64,000 bases of DNA from contig CM034135.1 of assembly GCA_019914995.1 (NCBI GenBank), positions 1,490,501 through 1,554,500 on the forward strand, read 5' to 3'. Below, piece by piece: positions 3,451-53,013 of this stretch; position 1 is the stretch's first letter, and every line of letters begins with the position of its first letter. The notes under the pieces are model-generated. The model was not told the DNA's origin. It did not search any database and saw only the letters and a list, made by a program, of their open reading frames with translations. A program made the position numbers and the translations under genes. The stretch comes from Acanthochlamys bracteata. Lineage: Eukaryota; Streptophyta; Magnoliopsida; Pandanales; Velloziaceae.

Positions 3451-5177
3451 GAGCAGTAGTTGGGTCCATAATCCTCTTTCTTTTTTAGTTTTTTTTTTAA
3501 TTTCCAAAATTTTGTAGCACTTTCAGCTAGCCGGTTTAGATGAAGGATCCATTCGGCATGTATTTTCCTTTTAAACTGCTTCATACTGATATATTCACAA
3601 CTCCTCTACTGATGCTTTCTGAATTCTAATTTCATACCCACTGTTCAGCAGTAGACCTCAAACCTCACCAAAAGAACCCTCATGTATCAATCTTGGGTAC
3701 AATGTCACCTTCCTTTTTCTGTAGGAGAAGCAGGTTTATCATATAAAATTCGGTAAATAATCGATGGCAAAACACAGCAACTCGAAAATAGAAAGAAAAA
3801 AAATATAGATACCTCACTCTTTGGAAAGTCTATCCAGTTTCTTTTCCCAGGAACATGACTTCCACATGAAAACAATCCAAGTTCCTCGCAACTTCAGAGA
3901 TGCTTGCCATAGTTCTTCTTCAATAAATGCAGTAACATGCACAAGATAATAATCTTCAGATATGAAGCATCTTTTGAAGTTTCTGCTACTTCTCATTCAT
4001 CAAAGTCCAAGCTGGAAATTTCCGAGCCTAAATGGCTCTCTGTTTAAAACGTGAAAGCAGACTAACTTGCTACTTGTCTAGGTCGCCAAGACGAATCAGA
4101 ACATCAAAGACTCTTGTAGGGAAGATGTTAGCATGCGCTCAAGTGTAGTATTCACCAAAAAAAAAGGTTAGCTAGTTCTAAGGCTACCCTAACTGGAGAT
4201 AATTTATCATGCGTTAGAAATCAATCAAACATGTGTAGCGTTCCAAAACAAGACGCCACAGACATGCTTTTCTTTTCCTTGTAAAAGGAGTCAAATTCCT
4301 CCATAATACCTCACCCTTGAGGTATTTAAAGGGCTTAAAGCCTACAAAAAATCGGCAATAGACATCATTTTGAACCAGAAGCTAGTTCTATCTGATCAAA
4401 ATGGGAAACAAAAGGAATTTGAAACGTCAGCATGACAACAATGAAATGTGGTTTCTTTAATGCTTCATACCTATTACAAACAATCAAGTTTTTACATGCG
4501 CCTTAAGAATATGACAATGACATACCTTGACTGAGATAGTTAACCAATGTTCTACTTTGGTCTGTATAGAGCTGTCCTGCTGCAGGGAAAAAAGCCATAG
4601 CTAAAAAGTATGTAGCATTCAAAAAGAAATCATCAGCGAATTAGAGATAGTAACTAATCATGAAATCCCAGCACCGAAACAAATATCTGAGACGCATCAC
4701 TATAACCGTTCTTTCTCTTGGGTCTCAACCAGATAAGAACACTTGATTGTGTGTATTGAACAAATCAAACCTATATAATCATTGCCGGGCATTTACACAT
4801 TCTTTCTATAGCAATGCTATAGAAGTCACTTTCTAGGCAATCTTGACCGAAAATTTGTGCCATCTTGGCTACACTATATTTCACTCAAGCTTTAGAAGAG
4901 AATGTCTCTTCTTGTTAGCTGCTAGCCAACACTACTTGAAACATGTTAACAAAAATGGAATCTGTTGACCTGGAAAAGCCAGGCAGACTGGAAAGCATAA
5001 CCTTTTAGTTTCACTTTTTATGTCCATGAGGTAAAGTTTCTCTAGATGAAATTTCATCCTTAGCTTCAACAGAGAGCGAATTGAATGGGTCGTGCCCAAG
5101 TCTGAACCTTTTGCTGCATGGGCCTGCTCTTACTTCCCCAAGTCTCCTGGAAAGAAAATACACATGCCTCTTTTTAC
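3451..5177. other. Spacer between convergent loci
   Basis: No gene recognised. A 60-codon minus frame at 3814-3996 is followed by a donor-like gtatct but matches nothing known to me. The stretch probably holds the 3' UTR of the gene at 3124 and the degenerate 3' side of the CHR4-like locus. Confidence 0.45.
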
Positions 5178-8100
5178 TTAGTAGCTTCTTCTATATTTTT
5201 CACCATCATTCTTGGGGAACTTGCTCAGAGCATTTGAGATCGTTTGGGTAGGGGGCTCAATTTTCTGTCTTGGGTCAAGTATATCAGGGTCTGGCTTGGT
5301 GCTAGGTCCAGCATCCATGGAAGTATCTACTGAATCACAAACTTCAGGAGAAGATGCTATGCTTTTGTCCTCCTCTGGAGTGACAGAGGGTGATGAAGGT
5401 GGTATGCTCAGGTTGAGGTTCAAGGTTGGAGAGCAGAGTTCAGTTTCTGTCGGAGGTGCACCTGACAACTTTGTCATTGTAGACAGAGGTGCATAATTGG
5501 AATTTGAAGCAGCAGGATCAGAGTGCTTACTAAAATCATCAGCGAAAGTATTCAATTGTCTTTGATCAGAAAACTGCTTCTTTCTCTTGGGATCCTTGGG
5601 TTGGCTGGGTGGAGGACCTGGGATTGTGAATGGAGGGATTGTTGGCTTGTCTTCTCCATAAAGCAGGCGGACAGACTGAGTAATTGCTGAAACAGTGGGA
5701 GGTAACTGCTTGACTCCCTGTGGCTTACTTGAGGGAACATTAACAGCTCCTTGGTGTTCCTGCAATGGTATCCAAACATCATGGTATTAGAGCTGCCATA
5801 CCATGTTATCAGGTCAAAATACCACGCTTGTGGTTTTATACAATACCTAACTCCACTATACCACTATATTGGATCTAAATTTACTTATTTGAATGGAAAC
5901 TTTTGAGATCAACAAAAGGAGAGTTATTTTGGTACAAGAATGCAAGCCTCTGACAAAGTGGTGGAGGTGATGCTAGTTTCACCAACATGTAGAAGGCAGT
6001 GACTGTGGTAATGGGGCTGCTGACAAGAAGGTTGCAGTAGACCAAAAGAAGAAACAGTTGTGGTGGTAGAAAGAAGAAGAATAATCTGAACAACGTGACA
6101 TCCATCTTTTGAGAGTTATCTACCTAAATTGGTAGGATATAGGATGACAGAAACAGTGAGTACTTATAGAAATTAATTAATAATAAAAAGTTGAAATGGT
6201 AAGCACGAAGCAGTAAATGACAATTACAATTTTGGGTCCCACGGTTTGAGTATAATACACAAACAGGTCCCCTTTGTTACAAATTCCAATTGTTTTGAGA
6301 AATACCATTGAATAATCGTACCATATTACAATACTCCCAGGCATCACTTTGGTATTATTATGCCATGTTATTTGGTTCCGATACTTGCAGACACCATTTT
6401 TTGTAGCATTATACCATGCTATTTGAAATGCTACAGTATCACAGGAATATCATAGTATTCTTGAACATTGTAGCCATCCAGATGAACCCCACATTTGAAC
6501 CATTTATCATCCACTCTGGACACTCAAACTACACATAATTGGTTTCTGTAAGCCTCTCGCATTCGCGGATGCTCAAGATCGCATCTGAATCACATTTTTG
6601 TGTTAACCTCACTAAAAAAAAAATAGAAAAACATTAAACAAAATAAGTTAAACAGAAAAGTTATCTACCTCTTTGACCAATTAAGGTGTGTTTGCTCATA
6701 ACCTTGCATGTAACTGTTTGTTTATATCATACAACTCCAGAGATAAAGAGGAAAACCCTTAACAAATTTGTGCATCCACTATCTGACAAGAACTTCCAAG
6801 TAAACTCCTCAAACTACACAAGAGTATATCTATAGAATGCCAAAAAGGAAACTTTAGAAGTCATGGATAAGTTTTTCTAAGGTATTGAACCACCAAAGTG
6901 GTGCTGATCTACGTGTAGTTATGCCTTACTCTTGCTTATATGTTACCTATAATATATGTACAAAACTGAAATGGCAATATTAAAGTAGCTCTTAAAAATA
7001 CTTAGCGTATAAATCATGTAGATTGAACGCTACAATAAGAGAAGAATTAAATGTGCAAAAAGACTGCTCAATTTTTTAGTGAACAATACAGTGTCAAAAG
7101 AGGCAACTTACAGACAACAAACAAAGAATATCTAAATGAAAGCAAAATGAAGGCATGGGAGCTACCTCATGTGGCTTCTGACTAACAACGTTTTGTGTTT
7201 TTGCTTCCTTTTTCCTGATATATTTAGAAGTTGACGGAGCAGTTGATTTAGCATGTTGAATAAGCTGCTTTGTTTCAGGGTAAGAAGTACCCCCAGACAT
7301 CTGATCACAGTCAACTGCTGAACATGTTCATCCTTGTCAACGACTTTCCTTTTTTGCTTCTTCTTCTTGTCCTTTTTACTTAACTTCTTCTTGTTCTTCA
7401 AATTCTCAGGGGACTGCGGGCGTGGAAGAGTGATTTTTATCTTTTTTGTTTCACATTTGAAAACCTCAGGATTTTCTCCAGGAGATATGTCACTAAGAAC
7501 AGATGCCTTAACACTTGAATGGCTTCTCTTTGAAGAACTTCTCTTTTCATGTGCTGGGTTTTGGCTACTTTCAGTTTTGGTATCAGATGCTGGGAACCAT
7601 CACCTACAGAACCACCTGACTTTTTGCTACCTGAAGTATGAGCTTGACAGCCATCTGTATTACTTTCATCAGGCTTGTAGGACAAATCTGACGCTTTAGA
7701 CACTTGAAAGCTGCCTCTAATTTTTAACCATTTGATGCTTCCCTCTCCAGCATTTGAAGACTTCACAAGATCTTTACGCTCACTGAAATTTGGGCAATGC
7801 CACTTGCCAGGTGGAGCGCGCTACTCAAAAGCAAATTAAATAACAACCATAAAGTTGTAACACCAATTACACAACAAAACATGCCATATGAAAACTGACA
7901 AACAGACATCGATTCTTACCTTGAGGGGTGGGTTAAGACACTAAAGATGATAGGTTTGAGGACAGCTATCACAGCAAAGCAGATTCCCTCTGAGATCACA
8001 TTCTACACATTCAAAGTAGTACTGCAAAGCACAACATCAAATTTTTAGGGCCTGCTATAAAAGGAAAAAAACTGACCTTGTAAGGTTTAGGCACTTAATA

Positions 8101-9087
8101 AAAAACAAAAAGGAACAATATATCTAAATATGGGACCTGGACGATATTAACAACCAGGAGTGCTGGAATCTAGGAATATAAAAGAATGAAAAGGGAAGCA
8201 GATGCAGAATTTGAGTCTTGTGACATGTTTGATTTGAGCAGAATAGACTACTCTCTTGGAGACACAAGTGAAGATAAATGTACCTTGTACTTTGTAATGC
8301 TACAAAATCCTATGCCATATTGCCAGTCGAATCAACTAAACCAGATTGTGCAAACTACAAAATCAAAACTGCACTGTGTTAATGGAAGTTAAAATGCTGC
8401 TTGCACAGTCCTGAGACCTATTTGAGACCGAAACTGTCATCACATTTCAACAGATAGCTTCTATAATACAACTATGCAGTCCGATTGTCATTAATCTGTG
8501 ACTGCAGAATGAAACATCAACCCAAAGAAAAAAGGTTAAATTCTGTGTCCATTGCTTTCTACCAAATCCTTCTATTCAAGGGCACTTTAGCAATCTACTC
8601 CTTTCACCATCATTGCTGTAATCTAACTGCTCAAATTATAACCTTTTTATACTAACTTTCACTGAGATATGTTCAAATTATAACCCTTGAACATATCTGA
8701 ATTATATTTGATAAACCGGAGCATCCTGATTAGTCCTCAATATTTTAGCTCCTGAATTATTTTTTCTAGTTTTGGGTCACATAAACCTACAACAAGCAAG
8801 GTAGTTAGATGTACCTCTATCAAATATTAAGCTAGAAGAGAAACAAGAAAGCTTACCCCGTCATTCCCTTTAATCTTGGTAGAAACCCGAGAAACATTGA
8901 TTTCACATTTATGTCTCCTTTTCATAGGTTGGTTGTTCCTCAAGGACTTCGATGACAGAGAAGTACCTTCTCTCTTGTAATCTGATCCATATGTAACTCT
9001 TCTTCTCTTGCGTTTTGATACCCAATTCCTGTCGATCATTCTTTTGCATAAAGAACTGGTTTCCTGCATCCTTTGATCCTTGAAAAC
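5178..9087 (-). pseudogene. Decayed CHR4/PICKLE-related chromatin remodeller (PHD plus C-terminal tail, no ATPase)
   Basis: Four exon remnants on the minus strand resemble the N- and C-terminal parts of Arabidopsis CHROMATIN REMODELING 4 (PICKLE-related) proteins. Exon 8857-9087 holds RNWVSKRKRRR and a basic stretch ending KGNDG. Exon 7920-8021 begins the PHD finger (FECVECDLRGNLLCCDSC). Exon 7166-7820 continues it (PPGKWHCP) and then a Lys/Ser-rich linker. Exon 5178-5759 carries the C-terminal block LPPTVSAITQSVRLLYGED and TIPPF, then PSQPKDPKRKK. The family has two chromodomains and a SNF2/Chd helicase between these blocks; here a 1.4 kb intron-like gap stands in their place. Damage: an in-frame TAG (7941-7943) inside the PHD finger, loss of the last zinc-binding Cys (CPNF where CPKC is expected), and frameshifts near 7570-7600 and 7305-7325. 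The remaining splice sites are canonical. Interpreted as an internally deleted, decayed duplicate. Confidence 0.85.
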
Positions 9088-11270
9088 CTGTGCAAGATAC
9101 TATAATGACCATGACAAATAAATGCCATAATGTTTCTGCAATCATAGCAGTCGAAATATGTATGCTCATTACAGATGCAATTTAGAAACCTATTATAAGA
9201 ATATAAAAATTTGTCTCCCTCACTACAAAGTAGTATTCATCTTGCCAAAAGCAAAATTAAGCTTCAATATCTACTTGGACGATACTTTAAACAAAGTATG
9301 TGCTTCAAAAGATATGCTGTGTTTCCTACACAAAGGACGTCATATTTGCACCATATACATTCCTATTTAAGGAAGCACAGTTTTTTTCTCCGGAACTAAA
9401 GCATACCTAGAATATCCATCCATGTATAAGTGCTGAGAAGGGTATCCTACTTGAGCACAAATTCCATGGCATCATGTATGCAGCCTCTATATTTTAAATC
9501 TTCACAGAAAAGGCTACTTGCAAAGCAGCTTTTGCTAATGCTATAGAAATGGACTAACAGGATGCCATTCAATAAACAGATATGTCACAAAGCATGATTA
9601 GCTCAGGCTACCCAAAGCATTCCTGATGAATTCCAAAGCACATAAAAAGACTATGAGAACTAGGCCATGCACAGTTACTACAACACAATTTTTGCTCATT
9701 GAATATCATGGTCATGGAAGAAGCAACTCATAGCGGGCAGTGAAGCCACTAGGATGTCTTCCATCTTATGGGACATGCACAATTGCAGTTGAGCAGGTGA
9801 AAAGAAGCTGAAATATATCGACTGGACATGAAGGACCCAGGAAGGCATAACCCCGATGCCATTTTAATAATCTCCAAGTGCAAGCACAAGTACGAATGGT
9901 CATGACTAACCTGTTATACTCAAAATGCATTCCAATTTTGTTGTATCTCCCCTTCAAAACCACAATCAAAAGTATGAACTGTGTGACTTCTGTAACAGAT
10001 TTTCTTCATAATATGATATATTTCACTTTTTTGGTGCAAGCTAAACCAAATGTATGGACCTTTACAGACTCACGGTATCAGCATTTCAGCAAATACCCAC
10101 TAGTCCGTCAACTTGAAATGAGTACTCATTAATCTTTTACCATCCTTTAGCTTAGCTGGGCAAGCTTGCCCCACAAAGCTCCTTGAAGTTACATAGCAAT
10201 TAAAACTACTGGTGCTCCATTGACCGCACCGAATACCATTTTCGGGAACAGATTAAACCATGCAACATACTTTTTTGCACAATGTACCTGATGGTTAAAG
10301 AACAAACTTCAGCCAGGCACCTTCAGCGGCAAATATGCCATAGCTAATTTCTTTAATATTTAACTCCAAAAAAGAAAAAAGAGCAGCTTTAGTGAGACAA
10401 ACTAATAGCCAAAGTCTAAAATTCATCAATATCCAGTGTGGCTGACAAAAGATGGTGTACGAATACTAGAAACTCCCCATATCTTATCACATATAGAAAT
10501 TACAACCCTCTTGATGCTTTGAGCAACTGACTATTCCAGTAGACAGAATGAAACACTGTTATGTTATCTACATAACCAGAACAAAGTTTGCTTTATTGGC
10601 AAAACCAACAGGCCCTCTAATATAAGCAACAGCTAACAAAAATCAAATCAAATTAAATTTCGTTGTTGCTATATCCGGCTTCCACAAAACAACTTCAACA
10701 TACTATTCGGACAACTAAGCTAGCCAGAGCTTCAGTAACTTCACCGAAGATCAAAACGTTATCAACCACATAACCAAAAAAACACCACCGAGAACACTAA
10801 ACCACAAGCAAACCGCAAAATCGGACACACCAAGTTGCTCAAACCACCTCGAATCCTCTTCGAATCAGTCACTTAAATGCCAAAATATCAACAAACAACA
10901 AAACAAAACAAAAGACAAAGAAAAAAGAACCGGAATCTTACCAGAAATCACACGATAAGGTTATCCAACAGTTGACTCAAAGCTTGATCTGGTGGGCAAA
11001 GTGATCGCCTGCAAGAATCGAAGCTAGAGAGGTCGGTGACGTTGGGGAGAATTTGGGGATTGAAAGCGGCAGGACAGAAGAAGAGAGAGGGAGAGATGAG
11101 GGGAAAAGTGGTGTAGAAGGCCGCAGAGATGGGAACGAATATGAAGAAGACACGTGGGGCCCGCCGCAAGAGGCGCTGGTTGAGAAGAGGGACAGCAGAG
11201 AGAATGTGTGAGAGGTTTAAGGGACCAAGGCTTGATCACGACCGATAGATAGATAGCCCTCAACACTTCT
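9088..11270 (-). other. Probable 5' leader and upstream introns of the CHR4-like pseudogene
   Basis: No recognisable coding sequence. The first coding remnant begins at a splice acceptor (9088-9089), so non-coding leader exons should lie to the right. The GC-richer block about 10950-11270 is a plausible first exon, with a donor-like junction just left of it. CACGTGG with GGGCCC occurs near 11148-11162, as often seen near plant transcription starts. A CT/TC microsatellite follows at about 11355-11380. Exact exon limits cannot be read. Confidence 0.4.
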
Positions 11271-11990
11271 TCCTCTTTCTTTCTCTGATGCAGTGACGCA
11301 ACGACGGATCGTTTGATTGCGGCGTCGAAGATACGGCGCGCTCTTTTTCTGTTAGCTTCTCTCTCTCTCTTCTCTATATGATGAAGATCAAACTTTTAAG
11401 GGAAATAATAATTATAATATAAGAAAATAAAAAGGGCATATAAATAATGAAAATAGTGGTCTGGTTTTGCAAATAACGACTTGTTGTCACTTGTCAGGAG
11501 TCAAACCAGCTGTACAGCGTGTATTCGGTGGGCTCTGGTGGGTTGTTCTCCTTTTGCTAATTGCGTGCAGAAAGATAACTCCTTTTGCTGTTTCCTGTTT
11601 GATACCATTCAGCGAATCAACCAACCTTATTCAACACGATCTCCTACTTCCAACAATTACTTTTGTGCCCCTATAAAAATACAATGTTGTAAAAGACGTA
11701 TCATTATAACATGATAGAAAGATTCCAATCTTATAAATTTTTTATGGAATTTACACCGCCGCCGACGACTGACGTCCACTCACATTGACGGAGTCAAATA
11801 CAAAGTTTCATGTATAGAACTAACTCCGTTTTCTCTGTTCTATCTCCGTTTTATGTCGTTGACTTGACTACGGTTAACTATATAACTCCAAATGAACCTC
11901 TATTACCAGTGTAGAAGGAACACTGGTGGCCGTACGCCATACGACAGCTTGGCCAGGGGCCAAAGAGCATCTCTCATTTTAAGCAATAGC
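11271..11990. other. Intergenic region between divergent loci
   Basis: Spacer between the minus-strand CHR4-like remnant and the plus-strand NF-YC gene. It includes the CT-rich microsatellite at about 11355-11380 and a GC-rich patch (gccgccgacgactgacg) near 11758. No gene seen. Confidence 0.5.
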
Positions 11991-11996
11991 ATTTCG

Positions 11997-12032
11997 CCAC
12001 GTGTACATTCAGCGGTCCCTGTTTACACGTGG
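11997..12032. promoter_or_regulatory. Paired ABRE/G-box elements in inverted orientation (NF-YC promoter)
   Basis: CCACGTGT at 11997-12004 and its exact reverse complement ACACGTGG at 12025-12032 lie 20 bases apart. They sit just upstream of a CT-rich stretch (about 12060-12085) that looks like the NF-YC leader. ACGT-core sites of this kind are bound by bZIP factors (ABF/AREB, HY5) and some bHLH factors. Two copies are a typical ABA-responsive arrangement. Function is inferred from the motif only. Confidence 0.6.
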
Positions 12033-12049
12033 CACTTGGGAACCTAATT

Positions 12050-13561
12050 CCCTCTGTGTTCTCCGACCAACTCTCTCTCTCTAACTAATATTTGAAGTTC
12101 ACGCTTTCTTTCTAGGTTTCGAGATCCTTCTACCGCAGCAGGTACTTCACTAAAAAAAATAATAATAAGATTTTTATTTGGTGTTTGTTTAAATCTTAGC
12201 TCTTCTATAGTTGTTTGAATAATGATCACCGTTTTCTTGAATCATAAAAAACTTGTTTTTAGTTTCTGTTTAAATTCCAGTAGAGAAGAAGGTACTTTGG
12301 TTTTTTGTTTAAGAGCTGATGATTGGATTCACTATGCATGTTGTTTCGTAGTGTTTTTGTGGATTCTTTGTGTATACATGTACAATATTTGTAGTTTATT
12401 GATGAATTTGTTTTTTCAAGAAAATATTAGTATTGTCATAAAGGTGGTATTTTACTTAAAATTTGTTACTTCTCAAAAGTTCATGATCTCTCTGTTCTTT
12501 GATGTGTGATAGGGGTGTATGTAGTTTTCCTTAGATTGCTAGATTTGGGGTTTCTTTGAAATCATTGTGTATAATTTATTGATCTGATTGATAGAAGATG
12601 TTGAAAGTTGGCATCTCTTTTGTTCATAGATATCCGATTTCAGGAGTTTAGATCCTCTTCTTCATAAACCTCCATGTTGAATAGATATGGTGAGAGTATC
12701 ATCTAGTCAAGTAATTATGCTTACTTTGAAACGGATCAATAGTTTTATTGTCACTTTTCTATGGTTCGATGAAATTGTATTCTTCAATCTTAGATGACTT
12801 CCTTAGTGACCACCATTCACCATCCATTTTTCCTTTTGCTGTTGTCGCTTATCATCCTACACGCTTTGTATGATTCTCAACAAACGTTAATGCTATTGTA
12901 TCTTAGGTGTCCAACAAAAAGGTATGAAAGCTTGAAAGAGTAGTTTTCTCAGTCCTAAAGATAGAACTATTATTTTGTCATATATCATGAATAGCAGATT
13001 CTTGATTGCTGTCAGTAAAATATAAAAAAGCTGTGCGCAAACTTAGAAGGTAAGATTGTGTCCTAACAATTGGTGAAAGCTGTCGTGTTTTTTAGTATAT
13101 TATTTTAGCTTCCAAGAAGATTAAAATCATTCTTATTTTGACTTCTCGTTGGTGAGCAGGAGATCCATATTCAATTTCTTTGCTTTTAGTACTGATCTCC
13201 AATGTCCTTCAGATCGACTGTACATGCAGATATGTTCTAATGGGGCTCCTCATAAACCATGTAAGTATTATAAGTTTTTACCCGATTCTGTTAAAACATT
13301 TGAGAACTTCAGATAATCAAATTTAACTTCTGACGGCGCATGATAGCTGCATACAATTTATGAAATGTTAAAATTGCATGTGGTAATGTTGTATCTAGAT
13401 ACTTGATTATAGTAGTGTTAATATGGTGATCAGACATAAGTTTGGGAAACGACTATATACTGTTATAACCTAAAAGACTGCAAAATATGACAAATGTTTG
13501 ATCAGACAGAAGTTGCTGTGTTATACTACGGTCCTTCTTTAGGGATTTTTTTTTTCTGCAG
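12050..13561 (+). other. 5' UTR exon and leader intron of NF-YC
   Basis: A CT-rich leader (ctctctctctaacta) runs to a donor CAGCAG|gtactt at 12141/12142. A 1.4 kb T-rich intron ends at a strong acceptor (poly-T then ctgcag) at 13561. The coding exon starts 43 bases later. An intron in the 5' UTR with an intronless coding region is common in plant NF-YC genes. The transcription start is not determined. Confidence 0.6.
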
Positions 13562-13604
13562 TCTTAGTAGGTTTGCAATTTGGGACGAAGAAGAAGCTTT
13601 TGCC

Positions 13605-14426
13605 ATGGAACAACCAGCCCAACCTGAGATAGGTTTCATATCAGGTGCACTGCAAATACCTTATGCCGCACCTTCCTACCATGTTACTACTCCGATAGGT
13701 ACTAGTGCTCCTGCCATTATTGGAGCCATCTCTCCAACTCAGCCCGCAACAGCTTTCCCTACCTCTGCTAGCAACATTTCAGACCAGCACCAGCTCTCCT
13801 TTCAGCAAGTTGAGCAATTTCACCATCAGCAACAGCAGCAACAACAGCAGCAGCTTCAGGCATTCTGGGCAAACCAAATCCTCGAGATCGAGCAGACCAC
13901 AGACTTTAAGAATCACAGCCTACCTTTGGCACGGATCAAGAAGATAATGAAGGCTGATGAGGATGTCCGCATGATCTCCTCGGACGCCCCTGTGATTTTT
14001 GCAAAGGCATGCAAGATGTTCATACTGGAACTGACCCTCAGGTCATGGCTTCATACCGAGGAGAACAAGAGACGGACGTTACAGAAGAATGATATTGCTG
14101 CTGCTATAACAAGGACTGATATTTTCGATTTCTTGGTTGATATAGTTCCAAGGGATGAGTTGAAAGAAGAAGGCGTCTCGATTCCAAGAACTGCATTGCC
14201 CGCAGTTGGTGCTCCAGTAGAACCAATGCCATACTACTATGTCCCAACGGCACATCAGGCTGCTGCACAAGGGATGATTCTGGGGAAACCTGTCGATCAG
14301 ACAGCTGCAGCAGCAATGTATGGACCACAAACATGTCCAATGGCTTACATGTGGCAGCAGCCGCAAGCAGAAGAATCCTCTCAAGAGCAAGTGCAGCTGT
14401 CTCAGCAGCAGCAATCTGAAGATTAA
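13605..14426 (+). CDS. NF-YC: Nuclear transcription factor Y subunit C (NF-YC1/2-like)
   Basis: An intronless 273-residue CCAAT-binding factor subunit. Residues 1-75 are a variable, Ala/Pro/Thr-rich N-terminus, followed by a nine-Gln run at about 75-83. The histone-fold core covers about 97-190: [52 protein letters not shown] and [20 protein letters not shown]. The tail is Gln-rich. NF-YC dimerises with NF-YB through the histone fold and, with NF-YA, binds CCAAT; in plants it also partners CONSTANS and bZIP factors in flowering and ABA responses. The MEQ start and the DELKEEG region after the core place it near the NF-YC1/2 group. The upstream in-frame extension lies in the intron, so the ATG at 13605 is used. 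Residue 137 is Lys in ACKMF, where plant members normally have ACEMF. Confidence 0.93.
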
Positions 14427-15004
14427 TTATTAAGGCCAACCTTTTAAAAGTCTACAAAATACTGATACTTGGTAAGTGACATTGAGGGAGTTACAGATGG
14501 ATTTTATTTGGTTTGGGATGTGTTGTACAAGTTCTTCTTATGGAAACGTTCAGTACAGCAGCGGGCATTATAATGCTGTATCTAGGTTTCAGTAGTGCAA
14601 TTACATATTTAAATGTGTGGTCTTGTAACAAAGAATCCTTTAGAGACCGCCACTGATTATTATCTTCATTGTCAGAAGGAAATAAAGCATTGCAATAATT
14701 ATCTTCAAGTTACGGTAATTCTGGATGAAGATGGGATTTTTTTTTAAATATTTTGAGAGCCCGTCTTCTTATTTTCAAGTGCACAGATATTGCTACAACA
14801 TTCAGGAGAGGTCAGAGACAATCTGTTCAATTTTTACGAGTAGAATTTCACTGGTCTGAAAACTGCACAGATAACAGATGAACGAGGGATCTTCTAGTAT
14901 TGTTTCACTATCGAAGCCATAACCAGAATCATAAAGAGACGAAACCTTAAAACAATGAACAGGCTTTGCTGGTAACTTTAGAGATCGCATTTATTATAAA
15001 GAAA
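14427..15004. other. Convergent 3' regions of NF-YC and the KUP gene
   Basis: 3' UTRs of the plus-strand NF-YC gene and the minus-strand potassium transporter meet here. aataaa-type signals occur near 14680 (gaaataaagc). No further gene seen. Confidence 0.5.
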
Positions 15005-18000
15005 CTATACATAAAACACTTGCCCCACATTGAGCAAGCTCTCATGTGGTACATTGAAGATAACACTGTTTTCTCTACATATCCTCCTAAGAAATGCGTA
15101 TATGTAATTCACTGCAATCTTTTTTAAAAAATTTGAATTCCTCCGAGCTCTCACTATAGTGTTTCCAAGAATGTGAACAACACCTGCCTCTTTACACCTG
15201 TTCAAGAACTCCAGTTCGTCCTCCATCTGACTCGTGTGGCCCGAAAACCTCGACGCACTATTGGCATGATGAGGGGATTGGGCAGGCACAATTGAGTCAG
15301 ACGAAGTTGAATGCGTAATATGTGTGTTACCATTTTCAGTGAGGAGCAACTCAACTGAGATGTCAGTTTTCTCCGGCTTCATAGTCTGCTGCCCCTGAAT
15401 ACTGTACTCAGAATCTGAGTAACCATCCATCAATGACTCAAGTCTGACAAACAAACAGAGAGCATCAAAAAGCATCTTCTCAAAGTTTTCGTCTTTCTTG
15501 TGTAGATCCTTGTAGCCGTACCTTGCAACACAACGGAACATGTGGAAGCTCTTTGGGCCAATTCTCCTTACCAGAAATCTCTCATCGACAGGAACTGTAT
15601 AGACAGGGAGGTACTTCACGCAGACAAAAACAACAACCGAGTGGATAGCGGGTAGGTTTGTGATAAAGTGTGAGAATATGTGGGGAACGCCGCTAGCAAG
15701 CTCAGTGTAGACGAATCCAATACCTGGGACTCGCACCAGGCCAAGGCTAGGACCGAGGCCAAGAATCCAGGCCATTGATACTCTACTCTGCATCTCAAAT
15801 TCGTAGCGCTTAACACTTCCGTAATGCCAAACATACATGATGATGAGGAAGGCAGCTGCTATGACAAGAGGAACCCATCCACCTTGATCCACCTTGAAAA
15901 GTACTGCAGAGAAGTAGGTGAGCTCTACAACGAGGGATAGAGCCGTGAAGATGAGTACAAGGATCCAGTGACTGCGCCATACCAAAAGCATTATAGGGAC
16001 CATGAGGAATGTTGTCACTAGCATAACAATAACGACAGCAGTTCCTGCTCATATAAGAAAGACAGGAGATGTAATTCTAGGACAAAATATCCAGGTAAGC
16101 AGTCTGTGACAAGCTTTTGACTTTTGAGGACTAGTGCTGAATATAAGTTCTATAATGTATGTCAGTAATCCTTTCAAATAGAGACCTTATGCTTTGTAAG
16201 TAACTGTAGATACCAAAGCAAAGGTGGCAAGCTGACTTTATGAGATGTATGAATGCTCACCATAGGCATTTCCTATCTGAGTTTGGTTCTTGAATCCAGC
16301 AGTCACAGCAATGCAAAGAATCATGAGAATCCAATTTATGTCAGGAATATATATCTGACCTAGAAAATTCTTGGAAGTATGAACCACATTGACACGAGGG
16401 AAACAGCCAAGTGCTAATGCTTGCTTGATGATTGAAAATGTCGCAGATATGGTGGCTTGGCTGGCAACAACAGCTGCTAGTGTTGCGATGATAAACATTG
16501 GCCAGTATATGCTTTCTACAGATAATAATTTCTAATCAGCAACTGGAGCAGAGTTGCACCCCATTTGTAATGAAATTAGAGAAGTCTGGACATTACCTGG
16601 AATGGAACGGTAAAAGGCATCAAAAACATGATCTTTGTGATGCATAATGTAAGCTGCTTGCCCAGTGTATGCCAGAAGAAGGCACGGGAAGACAATTACA
16701 GTGAAAGCTATCTACAAAAAGTCAGATGTAAGATGTTAAATCGTGAGCTGAGACAAATTTGTTTTTAGTTGAATAACAACCTACCTGTACAGCAAGAACA
16801 GGGAAATGACAAAGATCAGCATACAAGGCTTCTATTCCTGAATATTTGAAGAAAAAGATGTAAATTATCGTATAGTTACCAAGTAATAATAACAAAAAGC
16901 ACTCTAAACATCTAACCTGTAATGCTAAGCATTATTCCACCAAGAGAGGTCCAATTGCTGTGACCTCTTCTGAAGTAACGATATATGTACACGGGAGAGA
17001 AAGCTTTCAATACAGTTTTATCATACTTGAATATATTTATAGCACCTATAGTTCCAATTGACAAAAACCAAAGAAGAACCACAGGAGCGAAAAGCCAGCC
17101 AACTTTATCTGTGCCATAATGTTGGACGGAGAAAAGAGCAACTAATATGCCGACAGCGACAAGTATAACAACATCTGAGACATTATGAAATGAACACATA
17201 TTAGAGAATTAGAATGTTAATGCTACAAAAGAAATTAAATGTTCTACGACAAGGTTGCAGTCAGCCTATTGGCTTTACTGTAGAGACAACATCAACTGAT
17301 AGTTCATTGTTCTACATCCTGTTATAAATTAAAGACAATTAAGAGTTTATTCAGATCACAGCAACAAATTTCAGGTCAAATTTCAAACTAGGGATGTGGT
17401 GTTAACATTATAAGTGGTCCTATCCATTCAGGGTAAACTGAGGACCAACCATTAATCCTCCTGTTTACAAGCCAAAAATATTTGAATGGTTGAGGTTAAA
17501 GCTTTCTAATGCATTTTATTCAGTATACAGAACAAAACATCTAAGAAAGAAGATGAGCAATAATTTCTCTTTCTTTGTCTCTCTCTTCTTTTTTCTTTCT
17601 TTTTTTCTTTTTTGGGTGCATCTTTATTTCCTTTTTATCTGAGAGCAGGTCAAAGAAAGTGAATTTTGAGATTGTAGACATACCACTGCTGATCCCTGGA
17701 TGGTCAACTTTAATACCACCTGCTGCAGAAAGTACTGCAAAAATAGAACTTCCAGTTAATAATAGGGCAATAGTATTGACTTAACAAAATACCGAGGAAG
17801 AAGTTATGATAGTGGCTATGCTAGATATATAAATTGGAGGTAAATAAAGAGATCATAATGGTTGCCCATGTCATCAAGAGTATCAAGTTGCTTCAGTAGG
17901 CAATATTTTGTTTTACAGGTCTCTCAACTAGCGATACTCTAGATAGTGAAACACAATATAAAACACAAAAGGCTAAGAAAGAAAATTATAGAAGCACCTG

Positions 18001-19888
18001 ATATTGCAGGAGTGAGAATCCCATCACCTATTGCCATGCAAGTACCAATGAGAACTAAAATGAGAAGAGCATTTTTGTTAAATGAATGAGATTCCAGCCA
18101 CCTCTTGACTTTTCCAGCAAGCGAGTTCTCATCAAATGTGTGGCGACTATATGTTGTGAGTTGTTCATCTGTCCTATGTTGATTGGGTATAGTATTTACT
18201 TTTGCATGCCGACATAGTAATGAATAAAGAGCAAATGTGCCACCTGCAATGTTATTAGAAACACAAGATTCATTATAACCTTCAATTAGAAATCAAAGCT
18301 GCTATATTATTCAAAACATAAAAGAGTCACAATGGCGTAAAACCTTCATGCTTAAATTATAGCCATAAATAGAAGTAAATCGTCTTGGAGAGGCTAAAGT
18401 CCACAATCCTTGCACAACTAAGAAATATAAAAGCAGGGTGGCTGAAAAATACTCTATATTTGACAGTGGTTCTAGCTAGATACTGAGTATCTTCTCCAGT
18501 AAATGAGTTTATAGCATTTAGGGTCAAATAGTATATAGAACGACATAATCAGTGAGAAAATGAATGCATCAGACAAAGTTGAAAGTGAATCAGAAGATTG
18601 CGAGTCTGCCCATACTCATTCCTGTAATCCTTCTGAAAAGACAATAATTGGTAAACATATAAACAGATCTTATCCATAGAAACATAGATATTTGCATATA
18701 CTATCAGACCTAAGGGAATTGAGCATAAAAAGCAGTGCTAAGTGTACAAACTAAATGCAGGATCGGCTTGTTCAAAGGAGGACAAACTTTTGATTCAGTG
18801 CGAATGTGTCACAATTACGTCCAAAGTGACTTAATGACCAAACCAAGGTAATGTTACCCTAGAGAAATAGGCCACACCGCAAAATCACCTTTATGAATCC
18901 CTGAAGCAACTAAAAGTGACTCATTCAGACAAGCTGCTCATGTTAGTATAGATCTTGCTTCACTAGTTCGCCAACAGTAACATTCTGAATAACTTGTTGC
19001 GTACCAACATTGGGTCAGAAATCAAACAATTTATAAAATAATAGTAGGCAAACCTATAAATCAGTGACACTCGTTGTAAGCAGAGACCAAAAGACCCTGG
19101 GTAGAAACCACTAGGGAGCTTTGACACCCATAGCCTGACTATGATAGCTCCAACATATTTGCAGGATTTCATGCCCCAAATGAAAAATAGCCAATCTTAT
19201 CCTAAAATTACTGCTATTCGACCTTAACCATTTAAAGAATTTGGGAAAGATTACAGGGTCTTAATATTTGGCCTAAAGGAACTTAAGCTAGCATTTTGAT
19301 ACTTGGATCTCTACCTGAAATGCACTGTAAGGTCCATAACGCATCTGGCATTAGCGAACAAGTAAATTGTTTGACAATAACCTCAAATACCTTCTGTACT
19401 AATAGTTTACCTTGACCATTGTCATTTGCCCTTAGCACTATAAAAACATACTTGAGAAGCGGTATGAGTGTGAGTGAGTAGATAATCAAAGAGAGGGCTC
19501 CCAAAATGTCCTCTTCATCTCGTATCCCTTTAGAAAACGTATTGTAGAACACATACAATGGTGATGTTCCCAAATCTCCAAAAACCACGCCTAGGCTTTG
19601 GAAGGCAAGCCGTAAAACTAATAAAGATGAAAACTTCTGCAATTCCAGAATCGCAAATATTAGAATAAACTAGATCCAACAAACCAGCTAAATACAACAT
19701 TTGTTACATCTACTAATTTCATGCTTACAAAATAATGAATAGAGGTGTCTATATGTAATTACCTTCTCCCTATACATGTTCTTCAATCTCCCAGCCTCCT
19801 CATCCATAGGATGATCAAGCTTCTTGTCCAGGTCCCACATACTCCCCACCATCTCCAATCCATCCCCTTCGATTGTTTCGGATGCCAT
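15005..19888 (-). CDS. KUP11: KUP/HAK/KT potassium transporter (KUP10/KUP11-like)
   Basis: Nine exons join without frame error into 789 residues: 19763-19888, 19411-19636, 17998-18243, 17684-17734, 16917-17174, 16785-16837, 16597-16711, 16261-16515 and 15005-16044; all introns are GT-AG. The protein has an acidic N-terminal tail with DEEAGRL-NMYREK, then the family hallmark [19 protein letters not shown] in the first membrane helix, about 12 predicted membrane segments, [33 protein letters not shown], and a long cytosolic C-terminus ending [11 protein letters not shown]. Family members are proton-coupled or facilitative K+ transporters of the plasma membrane or tonoplast, acting in K+ uptake, turgor and growth. 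The sequence, including the YREKKFSSLL junction and the C-terminal tail, is closest to Arabidopsis POT10/POT11 as remembered. Distinction between KUP10 and KUP11 is not certain. Confidence 0.95.
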
Positions 19889-21477
19889 TTCAAGGCCTTA
19901 TCCCCCAAAATTCCTCAACTGCTAACAGATTCGCACTATTACTTGAGCAGTATCAATGCTTTCAGATATCTCCTTTCAACCAGAACGAAGTTTTTATCAT
20001 GCAAGATGAACTTCTTCTCCTGCTTTACATCCAAAATTGTCAAAAGGTTTTAATTTGCCGAATTCCAAACTTCACTGCTCTTGATGCACTCTGATACAGA
20101 GAGCTTATGCACCAAAATCCCCTAATTTTGATATATATATATATCACTGAATTTCGGTAAACATATTATCTACTTTAAAGAAAGAAATAAAAAAGACCAA
20201 AACTTTACCAAAATTTTCAAAAAATTCTAACTCTACATTTCCCTTCTCTTTGGAAAAGCTTCAACACTAATCCACGAACTGAGAAGAACTACAACCTAAA
20301 ACTAACCCAATCTTTTTGAAAAGAAAAAACAAAAGAGAAAATTTGAAACTTTATGATATTTTGACACCCAGATAACACAAACAATCAAATATTTCCAATT
20401 TCCCAACACGGGTTCTCAAAATCCCAGAAAAAAAAAAAGGAAAAAGCTTAAATCACCTGAGAGAGAGATTTAAAAAAGAAAAAACAATAAAAGAAAAAGA
20501 AAGCTTTCCAAGAACAAGACTTTCTAAACGTGGCAATATCAGGCTGTTTGATACTCTCCCTCTCTCTATCCAAAGAGAGAAAAGAATGAAAAGAGAGAAG
20601 ATTAAATTAAGAAATTTATCCTACAAAAATGAAAGAAAAGTGTTGCGGGTGGTGAACGAAGGGAGGAGACAATGGAGGGAGATGGAATTCGTTTTGTCTG
20701 TTAAATTATAATTAAAACAAAAATTAGTTGTCTTCTTCCGGTGAAGGCCACAATTAAAAATTAACTACTTAATATTATATTTATTTTTGTGTAATAAATA
20801 TTGTTGAATTTTTTTGCTTCTAAGAGCATTGACTTGTAGAGAATAAGAATTGCAAAACCTACTTTATCTTTTAAATGTTTTTACTTAAATTCTGTAAGAT
20901 AAGAGTAGAATATTATATGATGTTTAAAATTATATGTTATTTATTATCATATGTTCTAATATTATATGATGTTTAAATTTTATTTAATTAATTGACGTAA
21001 AAATAGTAATTTTAATTTTAATAAATTTAAAGACTATGATAAATTAATATAGATTAACTTTTTTTGTAATATTTATTTTTTATAAAAAAAGTTTTTAAAT
21101 AAATTGGTGAATAAAGCGAATTATTTTTACATAATAAAGTGGACTATTATAATAGAATATTGTATGTTAATAATACATTGAAGCTAAATTTAGTTTAGAT
21201 AAATAATCAATTAATTGCAGATAACTTAAGCAGACAATGTTGAAAAAACTAATCAAATAATATTTTTGTTCTAACACCACGTGGATAAGATTTTTATTCC
21301 AAATTTATCAAAAACGTATTGTTGCTTTCACAAAGTTTAACTTTTTTCCAGATACATTTTCGTCTATACGCAGAACAATTTTGGAAATTTTTGTAACTTA
21401 CGAAAAAAAATTCACGACAAAAACTGACAGGTCATCATCAAATGTACAAATAGTTTTATTCATTTCAGATCGATATA

Positions 21478-21715
21478 TTCAGTGTGAGTTTATTTTTATT
21501 TTTTAATTTTTAATTTTATATTTTTTAATATATATTTTATATATATTTAGAAATTTTATTTAAAATTTTAAAAAATATAAAAAAATTCTATATAATAAAA
21601 ATTTTTTATTACATATTTTATTATTTTTTTAAAAATGAAAAAATAAAAATATTTTTTATTTAAAAAAAATTTCATTTTATAAGCAATTTCGAACACACAC
21701 TCAATTACAAGTTAG
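21478..21715. mobile_element. AT-rich MITE-like element, copy 1
   Basis: The unit starts near cagtgtgagttta and ends with ttttataagcaatttcgaacacacactc, giving short imperfect terminal inverted repeats (agtgtgagtt against agtgtgtgtt). The right end strongly resembles the unit at 50375-50605 (ttttataagtattttcgaac). No clear target duplication. The core is almost only A and T. Non-coding. Confidence 0.45.
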
Positions 21716-22242
21716 AATTATGTGAAGTATATTTTATTAATTTTTAAACAAAAGCAATTAGTCATAATTGTTAGGTAATTATTTTAATTTAGGTTTGTTT
21801 TACTTTTTACTGTAACAAGAAGCATATTTTTTAACTGTAATAAGATATTATGCCTTTCTTTGATGTTGATATTTAAAAAGAAATTCAATTAAAAATTTCT
21901 TAAAAGTTAGGTCATGATCTGATGATTAAAGCTAAATAAATTTTGGACATTTTTTTATCCATGATTACAATCCATTGACTTGATTTGACATTTTAAAATC
22001 TTCATTGATTATCTTATTTAAAGTAGATTTTCTTTTTCAAAAAATATTTCAATAATTTAGTCTAATATTTATGAATTCAATTTCTAACATTTAGAATAAC
22101 TGTTATTATTATTTGTTAATAGTATATACTTTTGTTAGTATTCTATATTGTAAAATTAAATATTTACATAAATACTTATTAATAGCATTTTTTAGTTTAT
22201 AAAAATAACTAAAATTTACATGATGAATAAAAATACCCAAAC

Positions 22243-22495
22243 TTATATAAGAGACGTTTGTGAGTGTTTTTAAAATAAAATTTTTTTAAAATAGAAAAAA
22301 ATTTATTTTTATTTTATAAATAAGATTTATTTTTTTATCTAATAAATTAATATAATAAATAATAATAAACTTTTACTATGTAAACTATTTTTAAATTTTT
22401 AAATAAATTTTATATATTTACAAAAAATATTTTTTAAAATATGAAATAAAAAACTAAAAAAGTTTTTTGAAGAAAAGTTTCCCAAACGTCCCAAA
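22243..22495. mobile_element. AT-rich MITE-like element, copy 2
   Basis: Left end gagacgtttgtgagtg and right end tttcccaaacgtccc form an inverted repeat of about 13 bases (GAGACGTTTGTGA against GGGACGTTTGGGA). The body is A/T only. The left end resembles the element at 54215. Target duplication not resolved, and the element is too small to encode a transposase. Confidence 0.5.
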
Positions 22496-22740
22496 GTATA
22501 TTCTTTTCACCCTACAATGTACTTACTTCAATTCAAAATTTATTTTTAACTACATACAAAATTATTTCTAACTTATTTTTTAAGTAAAATATAAAAATTA
22601 AATTTATTTTCAAAATACTATTTATAATTTAATAAATTGTTTTAATTTAAAAGAACACAAACATGGTCCAACTCATAGGATAGCAACATTTCATACCACA
22701 AAGGTTAGGTAGGTCATGAATCCATTAGCATTGCATGCAC

Positions 22741-22765
22741 AAAAAAAAAAAAAAAAAAAAAAAAA
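22741..22765. repeat. Poly(A) tract, 25 bases
   Basis: An uninterrupted run of 25 A residues. It could be a simple repeat or the tail of an inserted reverse-transcribed sequence. No retroposon body is recognisable upstream, so its origin is unknown. Confidence 0.9.
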
Positions 22766-23611
22766 GGACTTGATTCTTGTATCACATGATTATTTTATTG
22801 AATTTGTACCAACAATTAAAATTCTTTAGATTTTGTTTTGTGTGACTCATGTCCTAGAATGTTGGATTCAACAAAATATTAAATGCTGTTAGAGAGCATT
22901 TAGAATTGCTTTTCCTACATTTTCAAAAAATATTTTATATTTAACATTTTAATAATTTTTTTAATAATATATAAAAATAATTTAAATTTAAAAAAAAAAC
23001 CTGTTTACATAATAAAATTTTATTATTACTTAATTTTACTATTATTTAAATTAAAAAATAAATTTTATTTTTTTAAACTAAATATTTTTATTTATAAAAC
23101 TTTATTTTAAAAACCGTCTCAAACGCCAAGTGCATGTAACTTTTTATTTGAAATATTTTTTAATAAATTTAAGTTTTTATATAATTTATATAGCTCATAT
23201 TATAAATACTTATTTTTTTAAATTATTTGTAAAAACACTTAGAGTATGTTTTAATTGGTAAAAATAAATTTATAACATTGAGTTTCATTGAATTTAATAA
23301 AAAGCGAATCAAAAAAAAATTCGGTAAGTTTGGAAGAAACAAAATATAGAAATTAAGTTTAAATTTAAATCTAATAATATAAGGTAAGTTTGTTGCAATT
23401 AAAACATGCTTTTAAGATAAAAAAAACCTTCACCCATATAAAATAACTATTAGAGTGTTATCTTTTACTATAATTTATGTATTAAAAAATCATTATTATT
23501 TTACTGTCAATTATATAAAAATACAAAAAAAATTTTAATTTATTTTTCAAAAATATAAAAAATTAAATTTATTTCAAATAATACTATAGTAATTTATTTT
23601 ATGATAGCTAA

Positions 23612-23835
23612 GGCAATGTTTCAAAGTGCTTATGAAATAAAATTTTTTTAAAATAAAAATATTTTTATTTTCTTTGAAAAATAAGTTCTATTTTTTGTAA
23701 TAAAAATTTCATAACGTAAATTTTTTTCTATATTTTCTAAATTTTAAATAAAACTAAATATTTATAAAATATATAAAATAAAAAAATTAAAAATAACGTT
23801 CGCAAAAACGTAATTCCAAACGCACCTTTCAACAC
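23612..23835. mobile_element. AT-rich MITE-like element, copy 3
   Basis: The left end aggcaatgtttcaaagtgcttatgaaataaaa and right end taattccaaacgcacct are imperfect inverted repeats (aggcaatgtttcaa against aggtgcgtttggaa). The subterminal gtgcttatgaaataaaa is the reverse-complement counterpart of the right end of copies 1 and 4. Non-coding. Confidence 0.4.
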
Positions 23836-24266
23836 CGCTTGTAAAAGTTAGAGATTTGAACTCGGTACCAGTACGACTACGATTAGCCTCAACTACAAGT
23901 TACGGACATCTACTTTTCAAGGTTATTATTATAATATTAATATAATTTGTTATTTTTAAATTTTTGTGTATCATTATTTGGGCTTTAAATCAGAATACAT
24001 TGGGCTGAACTAAACATGCTGGCCTATTAATTCGTATATGGGCCACATGTAGGTACACATTAGTGTTGGGCCTCCAAGTTTTCGAATCTCTCCCCTGATA
24101 TCTAGGAGGTCAACGCAGTGGCACGACGCGATTGCTTCCAAAGGAAAAAGCTCTATTTTTCTTCTCAAATTCTTGTTTAATTCCTCTTCTTCAAAAACAT
24201 CAAGTTTTCTGCTAATGATATTCGAAAAATTTTCGAAATTTCTACCATTTTTTTGGATTTTCCATA

Positions 24267-26568
24267 ATGGGTTCAAATAGTTCACCATTTCGAGCTGATA
24301 TTTAGGAAGGGAAGGTGGCGTTGGTGACAGGCGGTGGGTCTGGAATCGGCCTCGAGATTAGTACACAGTTCGGAAAACATGGTGCTGTTGTCCCAATAAT
24401 GGGTCGCCGCCGCCATGTAATCGATGAAGCCGTCGGTCATCTCCAGTCACTTGGCATTCAGAGATAAAATCACAAGTAGAATTCACTTGTCATTATTTCT
24501 CATTAAAGGAGGTACATTAGGAAGACTATCTAATATCTAAAGTAGAAAGATTTCTAATTAGATATTTCGACATTCATGTAGTGATATATGTTATTAGGTT
24601 GCTGTTATTTTGAGTTTTAACCAAGTTTGAGATTTGATTTCTCAATTGTTTTTACACGTATACTGTTTTGTATGCAGTTAGGTGAAATTAGTATGAATTT
24701 CTTTATGGTTACATATGATCTAAGCTCTCTAATTGCTTGCTTTCATCAGCACTCCCTTTTGAAAGATTCAGGAACTTGAGGTGTAGCGAGCTCAGTGTGC
24801 TTAACAACAGTTAGGTATATTTCATGTAGTAAGTTGGATTAATATCATGCCTTTTTGTGTTTTATATAAACTCAAGGTCCTGGTTACGCGGCCTTCCTAA
24901 AATATTCTAAAACACTAATGCGAATTTGCATTGTCCACGATTTGTCTTGGATAATGTGCTGCAGGCCGCAGGGTTGGTGGTGATGTTGCAAGAGGGAAGA
25001 TGCAGCTAGGGTTCTAGAAAAGACTCAAACATTTTGGGAAACTTGATATTCTTGTCAATGGAGCAGCAGGCAATTTTCTTGCATCACCTGAGGATTTATC
25101 GCCCAACGGATTTCGTAAGGTGGTAGTCTCTTTATGTTTTAGCTGGCATTAGAATATACTGTCTTGTGGGTCTAGCAAATTCTAGTTTTGACTGGGCATT
25201 GGTTTGAGGATGCATTCTTCATTTAACCACAGCCTATTAATCTCACACATTTCTTGGGTGAGATTGACAGGGGTACCAAACAGTAATGCTTGTGTAGCTT
25301 TACCCAACTCTCTGGACGTAATGCAGCATATAATCTTATCTTCAGTAGAGATACCAGAATGTTCTGCTACTTAAACATATATTGTAAAGCATATACTATT
25401 AATGAGATAGCTAGTTGACTAGGAGTTCTCTAAAGCTTAGTTTGGCTGTTTTTTAAAATATTACTTCTCTTATCTTTTGGCAGTTTTGGATTTGATTCGG
25501 TTGGAACATATACAATGTCCTTCGAAGCTTTAAAGTATCTAAAAAAGGGAGGAATATGTAGAGATGAATCTACTGGTGGACTTATTCTAAACAAACTGCA
25601 ACTCTACACTATACAGCCTCTTGGCATCAGATTCATGTATCTGCTGCAAAGGTATTTTTGTGTGTGTTCATCGAAAAGATTCTGTTCATTGAAGTTGACT
25701 CTCCTTCCAAATACAGGCAGCTGTCGATAGTGTCACTAGATCTTTGGCCCTGGAGTGGGGAACAGATTATGATATCCGAGTCAATGGTATTGCTCCAGGA
25801 CCAATTGAGGGTACTCCAGGAATAAGAAAGCTTGTTCCGGAAGAGATGCAAAGCAGGGCAAGGGACTACATGCCCCTATTCAAACTAGCAGAGAGATGGG
25901 ACATTGCTATGGCTGCTGTATACCTGGCTTCTGGAGCAGGTTTGTCACCATACTTTTGCATGGATTACTCTGTTCCTGTGCTGGATAATTTTGCCTGAAG
26001 ATAGAGAATTTACAAATATGTTTGGAATTGATTCTTTGTTGTTTGCTACCCGAAGAAATATTGTAGGAATTTTAACATGGAAAACATAGAGATATTATAA
26101 ATGTGCTACAGAAAAGACATGGAAGCTTTTTGATAGCAAAAAAGGCACCTATAACAGTAGGGTAACATCTCGGTGAACAAGGAGCAGGGATATGCAAGGA
26201 ATTCTGACCTTTACTGGAATACTGCTGTTGTGAAGAGCTTCTAATTCATAATGAGATATAGTCTTTTGCTGATGTTCCGACTTTCATGCATTGAGGCTAT
26301 CAAATCCTTGAAAATTTCATGTAAATATAATACAGAAAACATGTGTCCTGTAGTCTTCTGTAATGTTTATCCTAAATTAGGTCTTACGTGATCAGTCAAT
26401 TTATCTGCTGCAGGTAAATACATAAACAGACACACAATGGCTGTCAATGGAGGGCTGTGGCTGAGCCGGCCTCGACATATACCCAAGGAGGAAATGAAGG
26501 CACTATCAAGAGTAGTAGAAAAGAAGACAAGATCATCACCAACCATGCTCCCTACCAGCAAACTCTGA
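24267..26568 (+). pseudogene. Decayed peroxisomal 2,4-dienoyl-CoA reductase (SDRB/DECR2-like)
   Basis: Five exon remnants keep the intron positions of a short-chain dehydrogenase: 24267 to about 24466, 24965-25119, 25494-25651, 25717-25939 and 26414-26568. Readable blocks: KVALVTGGGSGIG (NAD(P)-binding glycine motif), FGKLDILVNGAAGNFLA, SPNGF, EALKYLKKGG, LALEWGTDYDIRVNGIAPGP, NGGLWLSRPRH, and a C-terminal SKL, the type 1 peroxisomal targeting signal. The family reduces 2,4-dienoyl-CoA during beta-oxidation of unsaturated fatty acids. Disabling changes: TAG as codon 13 (24303-24305), a pair of frameshifts around the VLEKT block in exon 2, and a frameshift before ATLHYTASWHQIHV in exon 3. Exons 4 and 5 remain fully open, with canonical junctions. 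Because introns are retained, this is a decayed duplicate, not a processed copy. Expression of a truncated product cannot be excluded. Confidence 0.9.
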
Positions 26569-26752
26569 TATCTCAATCAGCCCAAAAATTGTTGTACGCC
26601 TTTATTTCACAGCTCCATTCATGCGAGTAAAAGTTTAGTTGATTCAGCGCCGAACTTCCTATGTCTTTGTAGGCTATTCACGTATATTATGTAGATGTAC
26701 AAATTCTTGTAAATTTTTTAAATAAGCGTTTCTTAACATAACAATATACTAA

Positions 26753-26979: not shown

Positions 26980-26982
26980 TAA

Positions 26983-31823: not shown

Positions 31824-31904
31824 GATCGAGCCAAAGTTTGCAGCTTTTTTCTTTCTCTTGCCAACTTTTGCTGTGTTGTTCTTTTGATCTCACAACAAAT
31901 GTTG

Positions 31905-45960: not shown

Positions 45961-45963
45961 TAA

Positions 45964-50832: not shown

Positions 50833-53013
<2,181 letters not shown>

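Follow-up and report, generated by a model that had tools for sequence, protein, structure and literature searches.

Why should broken, intron-bearing loci alternate with intact genes along one stretch of a plant chromosome? The question is raised by a stretch of 64,000 nucleotides from Acanthochlamys bracteata (C10:1490501-1554500, hereafter the window; the assembly comprises 195.5 Mb in 557 contigs), in which a CHR4-like chromatin remodeller gene, a peroxisomal 2,4-dienoyl-CoA reductase gene (SDRB), a PPR gene and a HINT2-like gene appeared to be disrupted. An earlier interpretation of the DNA, hereafter the sequence-only reading, had explained the pattern by gene loss after whole-genome duplication and had predicted that these genes would recur in the same order elsewhere in the genome, on a segment where the four broken ones are intact. 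Such a segment is present on C15. We are confident that the C10 and C15 segments are homoeologs derived from a duplication at a synonymous divergence (Ks) of about 0.31, very probably a duplication of the whole genome, and that genes were subsequently lost one by one on either side.

A collinear partner segment on C15

The window has a guanine-cytosine (GC) content of 35.3% and the appearance of plant DNA, in which genes contain introns and AT-rich gaps occur; scanning it for Rfam families and tRNAs gave no match. In a DNA search of the genome, window positions 5178-6449 matched C15 with 80% identity. A blastn comparison with 140 kb of C15 showed that window bases 1-63911 are collinear with C15:1457580-1524878 in a single order and orientation, the few matches off this chain being repeat-like. 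With 70 kb of C10 flanking sequence added, the chain extends from window coordinates -39618 to 93472 against C15:1420013-1553877, and gene order and orientation are common to both chromosomes across these 133 kb (63 blocks and 65944 columns, 82% identical where both carry a base). Aligned non-coding columns differ at 21% of positions. As predicted, open CHR4, SDRB, PPR and HINT genes lie in the same order on C15.

The pairing also holds at a distance from the window. The stretch C10:500001-510000 pairs with C15:422816-435741, and C8 and C11 also gave short exon matches; since C10 at 0.50 Mb thus faces C15 at 0.42-0.44 Mb, the two chromosomes are paired over at least 1 Mb. Genome searches were made with window positions 1-20000, 20001-39999 and 42000-61999, the best candidates being scored in each case (39 of 65, 38 of 7774 and 39 of 5577). 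Among these best-scored candidates no extended partner besides C15 was found, and matches elsewhere were short ones to single genes and repeats.

Four broken genes face open partners

The CHR4-like relic (a CHD-type remodeller, minus strand) consists of two parts. A frameshifted part of the last exon lies at 5023..5748, within a block at 4307-5748 that is 73% identical to C15, and N-terminal exons lie at 7071..9081 and map to C15 exons at 1472355-1474304; the PHD region of the C15 version is disrupted in the window translation. Between the two parts, at an internal deletion junction (5749..6278), 0.53 kb of the window face 7.55 kb of C15 (1463946-1471499), catalytic exons included, so that the catalytic core has been lost. 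Queried with C15:1463000-1470000, the genome yielded nothing beyond the C10 remnant of the 3' end and a single match of 102 bp on C3. What still aligns carries two stops in 544 confidently aligned codons and eight frameshifting gaps in 1679 bp, and its ratio of non-synonymous to synonymous divergence (Ka/Ks) is 0.62. The open C15 gene has a predicted span of about 12 kb, with SNF2 (PF00176) and PHD domains and an uncertain 5' end. The sequence-only reading had rightly called this locus broken but had drawn it too short, as the N-terminal exons lie beyond the coordinates it implied and the relic reaches about 9.1 kb.

In the SDRB-like relic (24267..26568, plus strand) none of the five exons is missing, and they are 85-91% identical to those of C15. 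It contains one internal stop and six frameshifts, all of them deletions of 1-2 bp and mostly of 1 bp, and the aligned end of exon 1 has lost its splice donor. The C15 copy has five exons encoding 300 residues without a stop and ending in SKL, and its best match in the PDB is 4fc6, a structure of peroxisomal 2,4-dienoyl-CoA reductase.

The PPR relic (32301..34309, minus strand), which we take to be At2g35130-like, shows 13 stops in its projected frame and 24 frameshifting indels in a MAFFT alignment. Part of this count is alignment noise from the 5'-most exon, which aligns poorly (56%); the confidently aligned codons hold six stops. The C15 copy encodes PPR repeats and reads open through 580 codons, its start codon not being located. 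Here too the diagnosis of a broken gene stood and its extent was revised, from an end at 33.9 kb to one at 34.3 kb.

The HINT2-like relic (50931..53010, plus strand) has four stops and five frameshifts relative to the open C15 copy, two of the stops and four of the frameshifts lying in exons past the first. The C15 copy encodes a HIT domain, finds its best PDB matches among HINT2 structures and keeps the histidine-triad end in frame. Lesions opposite an open homoeologous partner were found in two further genes, a KUP potassium transporter on C15 and an RNASEH2C-like gene in the C10 flank, both described below.

One duplication produced retained pairs and relics

Across 12 retained pairs (5947 codons) the pooled Ks was 0.313 (0.29-0.34) with a Ka/Ks of 0.28. 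Five relics compared with their open partners (1796 codons) gave the same pooled Ks, 0.313 (0.28-0.35), with a Ka/Ks of 0.36, which means that the relics have diverged from their partners as far as the retained copies have from each other. The comparison of retained pairs, which the sequence-only reading had proposed as a check, gave uniform values (0.27-0.44 for single pairs); single relics ranged from 0.235 (CHR4) to 0.407 (SDRB). The calculation omitted the exons of RNASEH2C, any exon with a score no higher than 10, and two exons containing a stop, one of GAPDH at -18177 to -18078 (stop in the mapped copy) and one of DHHC at 35453-35585. Equal Ks in retained pairs and relics indicates that one duplication produced both.

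How large was that duplication? A large segmental or single-chromosome event, followed by the same decay, is an improbable alternative to doubling of the whole genome, although close examination was confined to a single pair of chromosomes and two of four stretches sampled on other contigs, those on C1 and C12, turned out to be transposons and hence uninformative. Against such an event stand the pairing of C10 with C15 over at least 1 Mb and the partners found for the remaining stretches: one on C3 pairs with C5 at 79-91% identity, and one on C6 matches both C16 (80%, one block) and C4 (75-78%, two blocks).

Several points weigh against our preferred account of whole-genome duplication followed by single-gene loss. 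Genome-wide sampling is thin, with partners found for three of five stretches away from the window (one on C10, four on other contigs), and the homoeolog of the C6 stretch may be either of its two matches. As only the best candidates were scored in the searches, another, weak partner could have escaped. The relic Ka/Ks of 0.36, against 0.28 in retained pairs, means that the relics spent much of the time after duplication under constraint. Finally, seven of the one-sided genes described below left no detectable residue and may instead be gains on one side.

The lesions are real and arose in place

Errors of assembly or sequencing in working genes can be given hardly any weight. Certain long-read assemblies typically err by deletions of 1 bp, and the SDRB lesions are mostly of this kind. 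However, exons with identical predicted ends in both copies (35 exons) held five frameshifting gaps in 10616 bp, whereas the aligned coding sequence of five relics held 55 in 5797 bp. Read errors do not take the form of stops, splice losses or kilobase deletions, and the CHR4 Ka/Ks of 0.62 also speaks against them. A looser control gave 30 frameshifting gaps in 17973 bp. Nine RAN1 exons from it showed no indels on realignment, against 10 counted before, so the excess in the looser control comes at least partly from errors in the exon models. These models came from a home-made gene finder whose first passes fused genes and over-predicted short exons; exons were then chosen by score and by hand.

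Retrotransposed or otherwise dispersed pseudogenes inserted among unrelated genes, an alternative of equally little weight in whose favor nothing was found, would lack introns and lie in non-syntenic positions, whereas the relics keep their exon layout, most splice sites and alignable introns at the positions of the functional copies, and each faces an open partner with order and strand preserved, so that the sequence-only reading was justified in excluding retrotransposition.

In the account that we favor, a duplication, very probably of the whole genome, left the C10 and C15 segments, and redundant copies were then lost singly from either of them. In the window, CHR4, SDRB, PPR and HINT decayed in situ through stops, short indels and splice-site changes, CHR4 being hit in addition by an internal deletion of about 7 kb; KUP on C15 decayed likewise, with loss of its 5' part. 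The relics have probably lost expression, and their function is presumably carried by each open partner.

Timing of the deaths

Dividing Ka by half the pooled Ks gives the maximum share of post-duplication time for which a copy can have been dead, if the working branch underwent no amino-acid change. This upper bound was 0.35 for SDRB (0.48 at the upper limit of Ka), 0.63 for KUP, 0.74 for PPR, 0.88 for HINT and 0.93 for CHR4. A crude indel clock gave dead shares of 0.28 (0.12-0.56) for CHR4, 0.40 (0.15-0.87) for SDRB, 0.41 (0.18-0.81) for KUP, 0.75 (0.30-1.54) for HINT and 1.03 (0.67-1.51) for PPR. SDRB died late, and this is the sole death date that the Ka bound forces. By its indels PPR looks like the oldest death, and the date for CHR4 is loose. 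Deaths staggered in time are likely, though not proven. Short direct repeats showed no clear excess at 29 coding deletions filtered for flank quality (mean 0.62, against 0.56 expected), nor in the subset of 12 deletions of at least 3 bp (0.92 against 0.72).

Genes retained in both segments and genes lost from either

The KUP gene (15005..19888, minus strand) is intact in the window: it matches TIGR00794 above the cut-off over profile positions 1-598 of 688 and carries K_trans_C. Its C15 partner (1481073-1483059) is a relic in which nothing corresponds to the part of the gene upstream of window position 17013 and the last exon has a 379-bp deletion; it has eight frameshifting gaps in 1161 bp and no stops in 314 aligned codons. 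The decay and the partner segment foreseen by the sequence-only reading were found, with the correction that loss is reciprocal.

Five of the eight neighbours described there as intact are retained duplicates. NF-YC (13562..14426, plus strand; PF00808) has a Ks of 0.28 over 276 codons without an internal stop. The glycine cleavage H protein gene GDCSH (29903..31889, minus strand; PF01597; position of the first exon approximate) has a Ks of 0.36 over 128 codons, and the DHHC S-acyltransferase gene (35453..39665, minus strand; PF01529 on the C15 version) one of 0.28 over 557 codons without an internal stop. For the phosphoglycerate kinase gene PGK (47216..49930, plus strand; PF00162) Ks was 0.42 and Ka 0.023 over 393 codons. 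A long coiled-coil gene, presumably PICC (58943..63911, plus strand), extends past the window and has a Ks of 0.27 over 1304 codons; 1050 of the 1058 codons of its main exon align without stops, its Pfam matches are weak and to coiled-coils only, and a phmmer search of its frame against solved structures gave no match.

The other three neighbours, KUP, a MADS-box gene and a lysine-rich gene, are intact on C10 only. The MADS-box gene (42212..43328, minus strand; SRF-TF and K-box) has GT/AG ends at its six predicted exons; no residue of it was found on C15, and no DNA relative of the gene body appeared elsewhere among the best-scored candidates of the genome search. The lysine-rich gene (27400..29150, plus strand), which we take to be SCI1-like, has no Pfam match, and no C15 copy of it was found; DNA relatives of 28785-29073 lie at C1:8054100 (80%) and C19:2946228 (78%), among the best candidates scored. 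A preferential retention of transcription factors and enzymes, also suggested by the sequence-only reading, finds no support here: an enzyme, the reductase, was lost, MADS and KUP are single-copy, and the 12 retained pairs, which include the coiled-coil protein, a TRAPP subunit and a GTPase, are too few to reveal a bias by category.

Across the 133 kb, 16 differences in gene copies were picked by hand from the gene-finder output, other small predictions being left uncounted. Nine genes are broken or missing on C10 (CHR4, SDRB, PPR, HINT, RNASEH2C-like, thioredoxin/PLATZ-like, a HEAGH-motif protein, chaperonin-60 and an inositol-phosphatase-family gene) and seven on C15 (KUP, AICARFT/IMPCHase, its neighbour gene, SCI1-like, MADS, metallophosphatase-like and NBS-type), and no bias of loss between the segments is visible in these numbers. 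The names SCI1, PICC, HEAGH-motif protein, metallophosphatase, thioredoxin/PLATZ and NBS are assumptions; other gene names are supported by Pfam, NCBIfam or PDB matches, Arabidopsis-style names not having been tested as orthologs. The thioredoxin/PLATZ-like stretch may hold more than one gene. The RNASEH2C-like gene, whose C15 version matches PF08615, is a relic on C10 (window coordinates 89133-89967) with one frameshift. Of the four stops counted in it, one is in frame within the domain and the remaining three lie close to exon ends that are uncertain.

Searches by blastn and tblastn divided the 16 differences into six long relics, three traces and seven cases in which nothing was found. Measurement of five of the long relics showed that 28-86% of the intact gene's span can still be aligned. 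The traces are 161 bp of AICARFT, 56 bp of the metallophosphatase-like gene and 350 aligned bp, partly repeat, of the thioredoxin/PLATZ-like stretch. Among 12 tblastn query sets for residues of one-sided genes, made up of predicted exons with a finder score above 9 and at least 15 residues, two short matches were obtained (E up to 0.01). When the CPN60 interval of C15 served as query against the genome, matches to a repeat crowded out all others, and the search is uninformative about further CPN60 copies. At AICARFT/IMPCHase and its neighbour, about 8.3 kb of C10 (window coordinates -15155 to -6840) face 100 bp of C15 (1451209-1451309), a gap that corresponds either to a clean excision of two genes on C15 or to an insertion on C10, in a region where nearby genes decayed in place.

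Repeats and inserted DNA

A GC-rich patch at window positions 44982-45520 is made up of a row of ten abutting pieces, each 31-70 bp long, that are 98-100% identical to scattered places on both strands of the small contigs C115, C289 and C552, and to C2 and C4. At its nine junctions the pieces meet flush in three cases, overlap by 1-6 bp in four and leave 31-34 bp unmatched in two. Samples of C115, C289 and C552 have a GC content of 43-51%, and these contigs are probably mitochondrial; a 5-kb sample of C552 yielded no RNA family or tRNA. From its sequence the patch looks like a recent complex insertion of organelle DNA. Plant insertions built from several organelle fragments are known (PMC6215612), but the pieces here are very short.

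At 45691-45971 lies a repeat of about 270 bp. At least 37 further copies are spread over 19 contigs; 35 of these are 96-98% identical and two are 85% identical, and the high identity indicates recent mobility. Short AT-rich repeats of high genomic copy number occur at 21498-21704, 22250-22491, 23615-23833, 50371-50608 and 54209-54422. They match one another on both strands, as inverted-repeat elements would, and are possibly a single family resembling miniature inverted-repeat transposable elements. In the C1 stretch (C1:1000001-1010000) an element some 3.75 kb long lies at roughly 950-4710. It has at least 24 near-full-length copies at 81-87% identity (best 30 of 5131 candidates), and one of its predicted frames resembles what we take to be a copia-type polyprotein.

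Discussion

Gene-by-gene decay after duplication is a known and ordinary process. In maize, Woodhouse et al. (2010; PMC2893956) describe gene-by-gene loss between homoeologs of the tetraploidy, through many short deletions and with a 2.3-fold bias. The segments studied here likewise show single-gene loss between homoeologous segments and many short deletions; in contrast to maize as described there, they show no clear excess of direct repeats at deletions and no visible bias (nine against seven). According to Yu et al. (2020; PMC7775554), fractionation proceeds mainly by excision and leaves few if any relics after genome doubling. The seven differences without detectable residue and the three with traces agree with this, whereas long relics at six of the 16 differences do not.

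In three summary numbers (Ks 0.31, window GC content 35.3% and lengths of 7.4-14.9 Mb for the large contigs examined) the genome resembles mangroves of the Rhizophoraceae, which have Ks peaks of 0.32 in Rhizophora apiculata and 0.38 in Kandelia, Kandelia obovata chromosomes of 5.03-13.8 Mb (PMC7195387) and a GC content of 35.24% in Ceriops zippeliana (PMC8982413).

Nothing here is unusual except the share of long relics, a mild surprise from a small, hand-picked sample of 133 kb. We advance only tentatively, as somewhat less probable than its opposite, the idea that duplicates in this genome frequently decay where they stand, in some cases late, and that their corpses persist, with deaths spread over the time since duplication. 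If the six long relics in 16 differences were typical of the genome, it would provide a counter-example to the rule of fractionation in plants by excision with almost no relics.

Our findings show that a prediction made from raw sequence alone was borne out in the same genome. They also point to a small genome in which excision and decay in place can be measured against each other, as aligned open partners allow deaths to be dated and deletions to be sized. For the plant itself, C15 probably supplies the remaining function of CHR4, the reductase, PPR and HINT, and C10 that of KUP.

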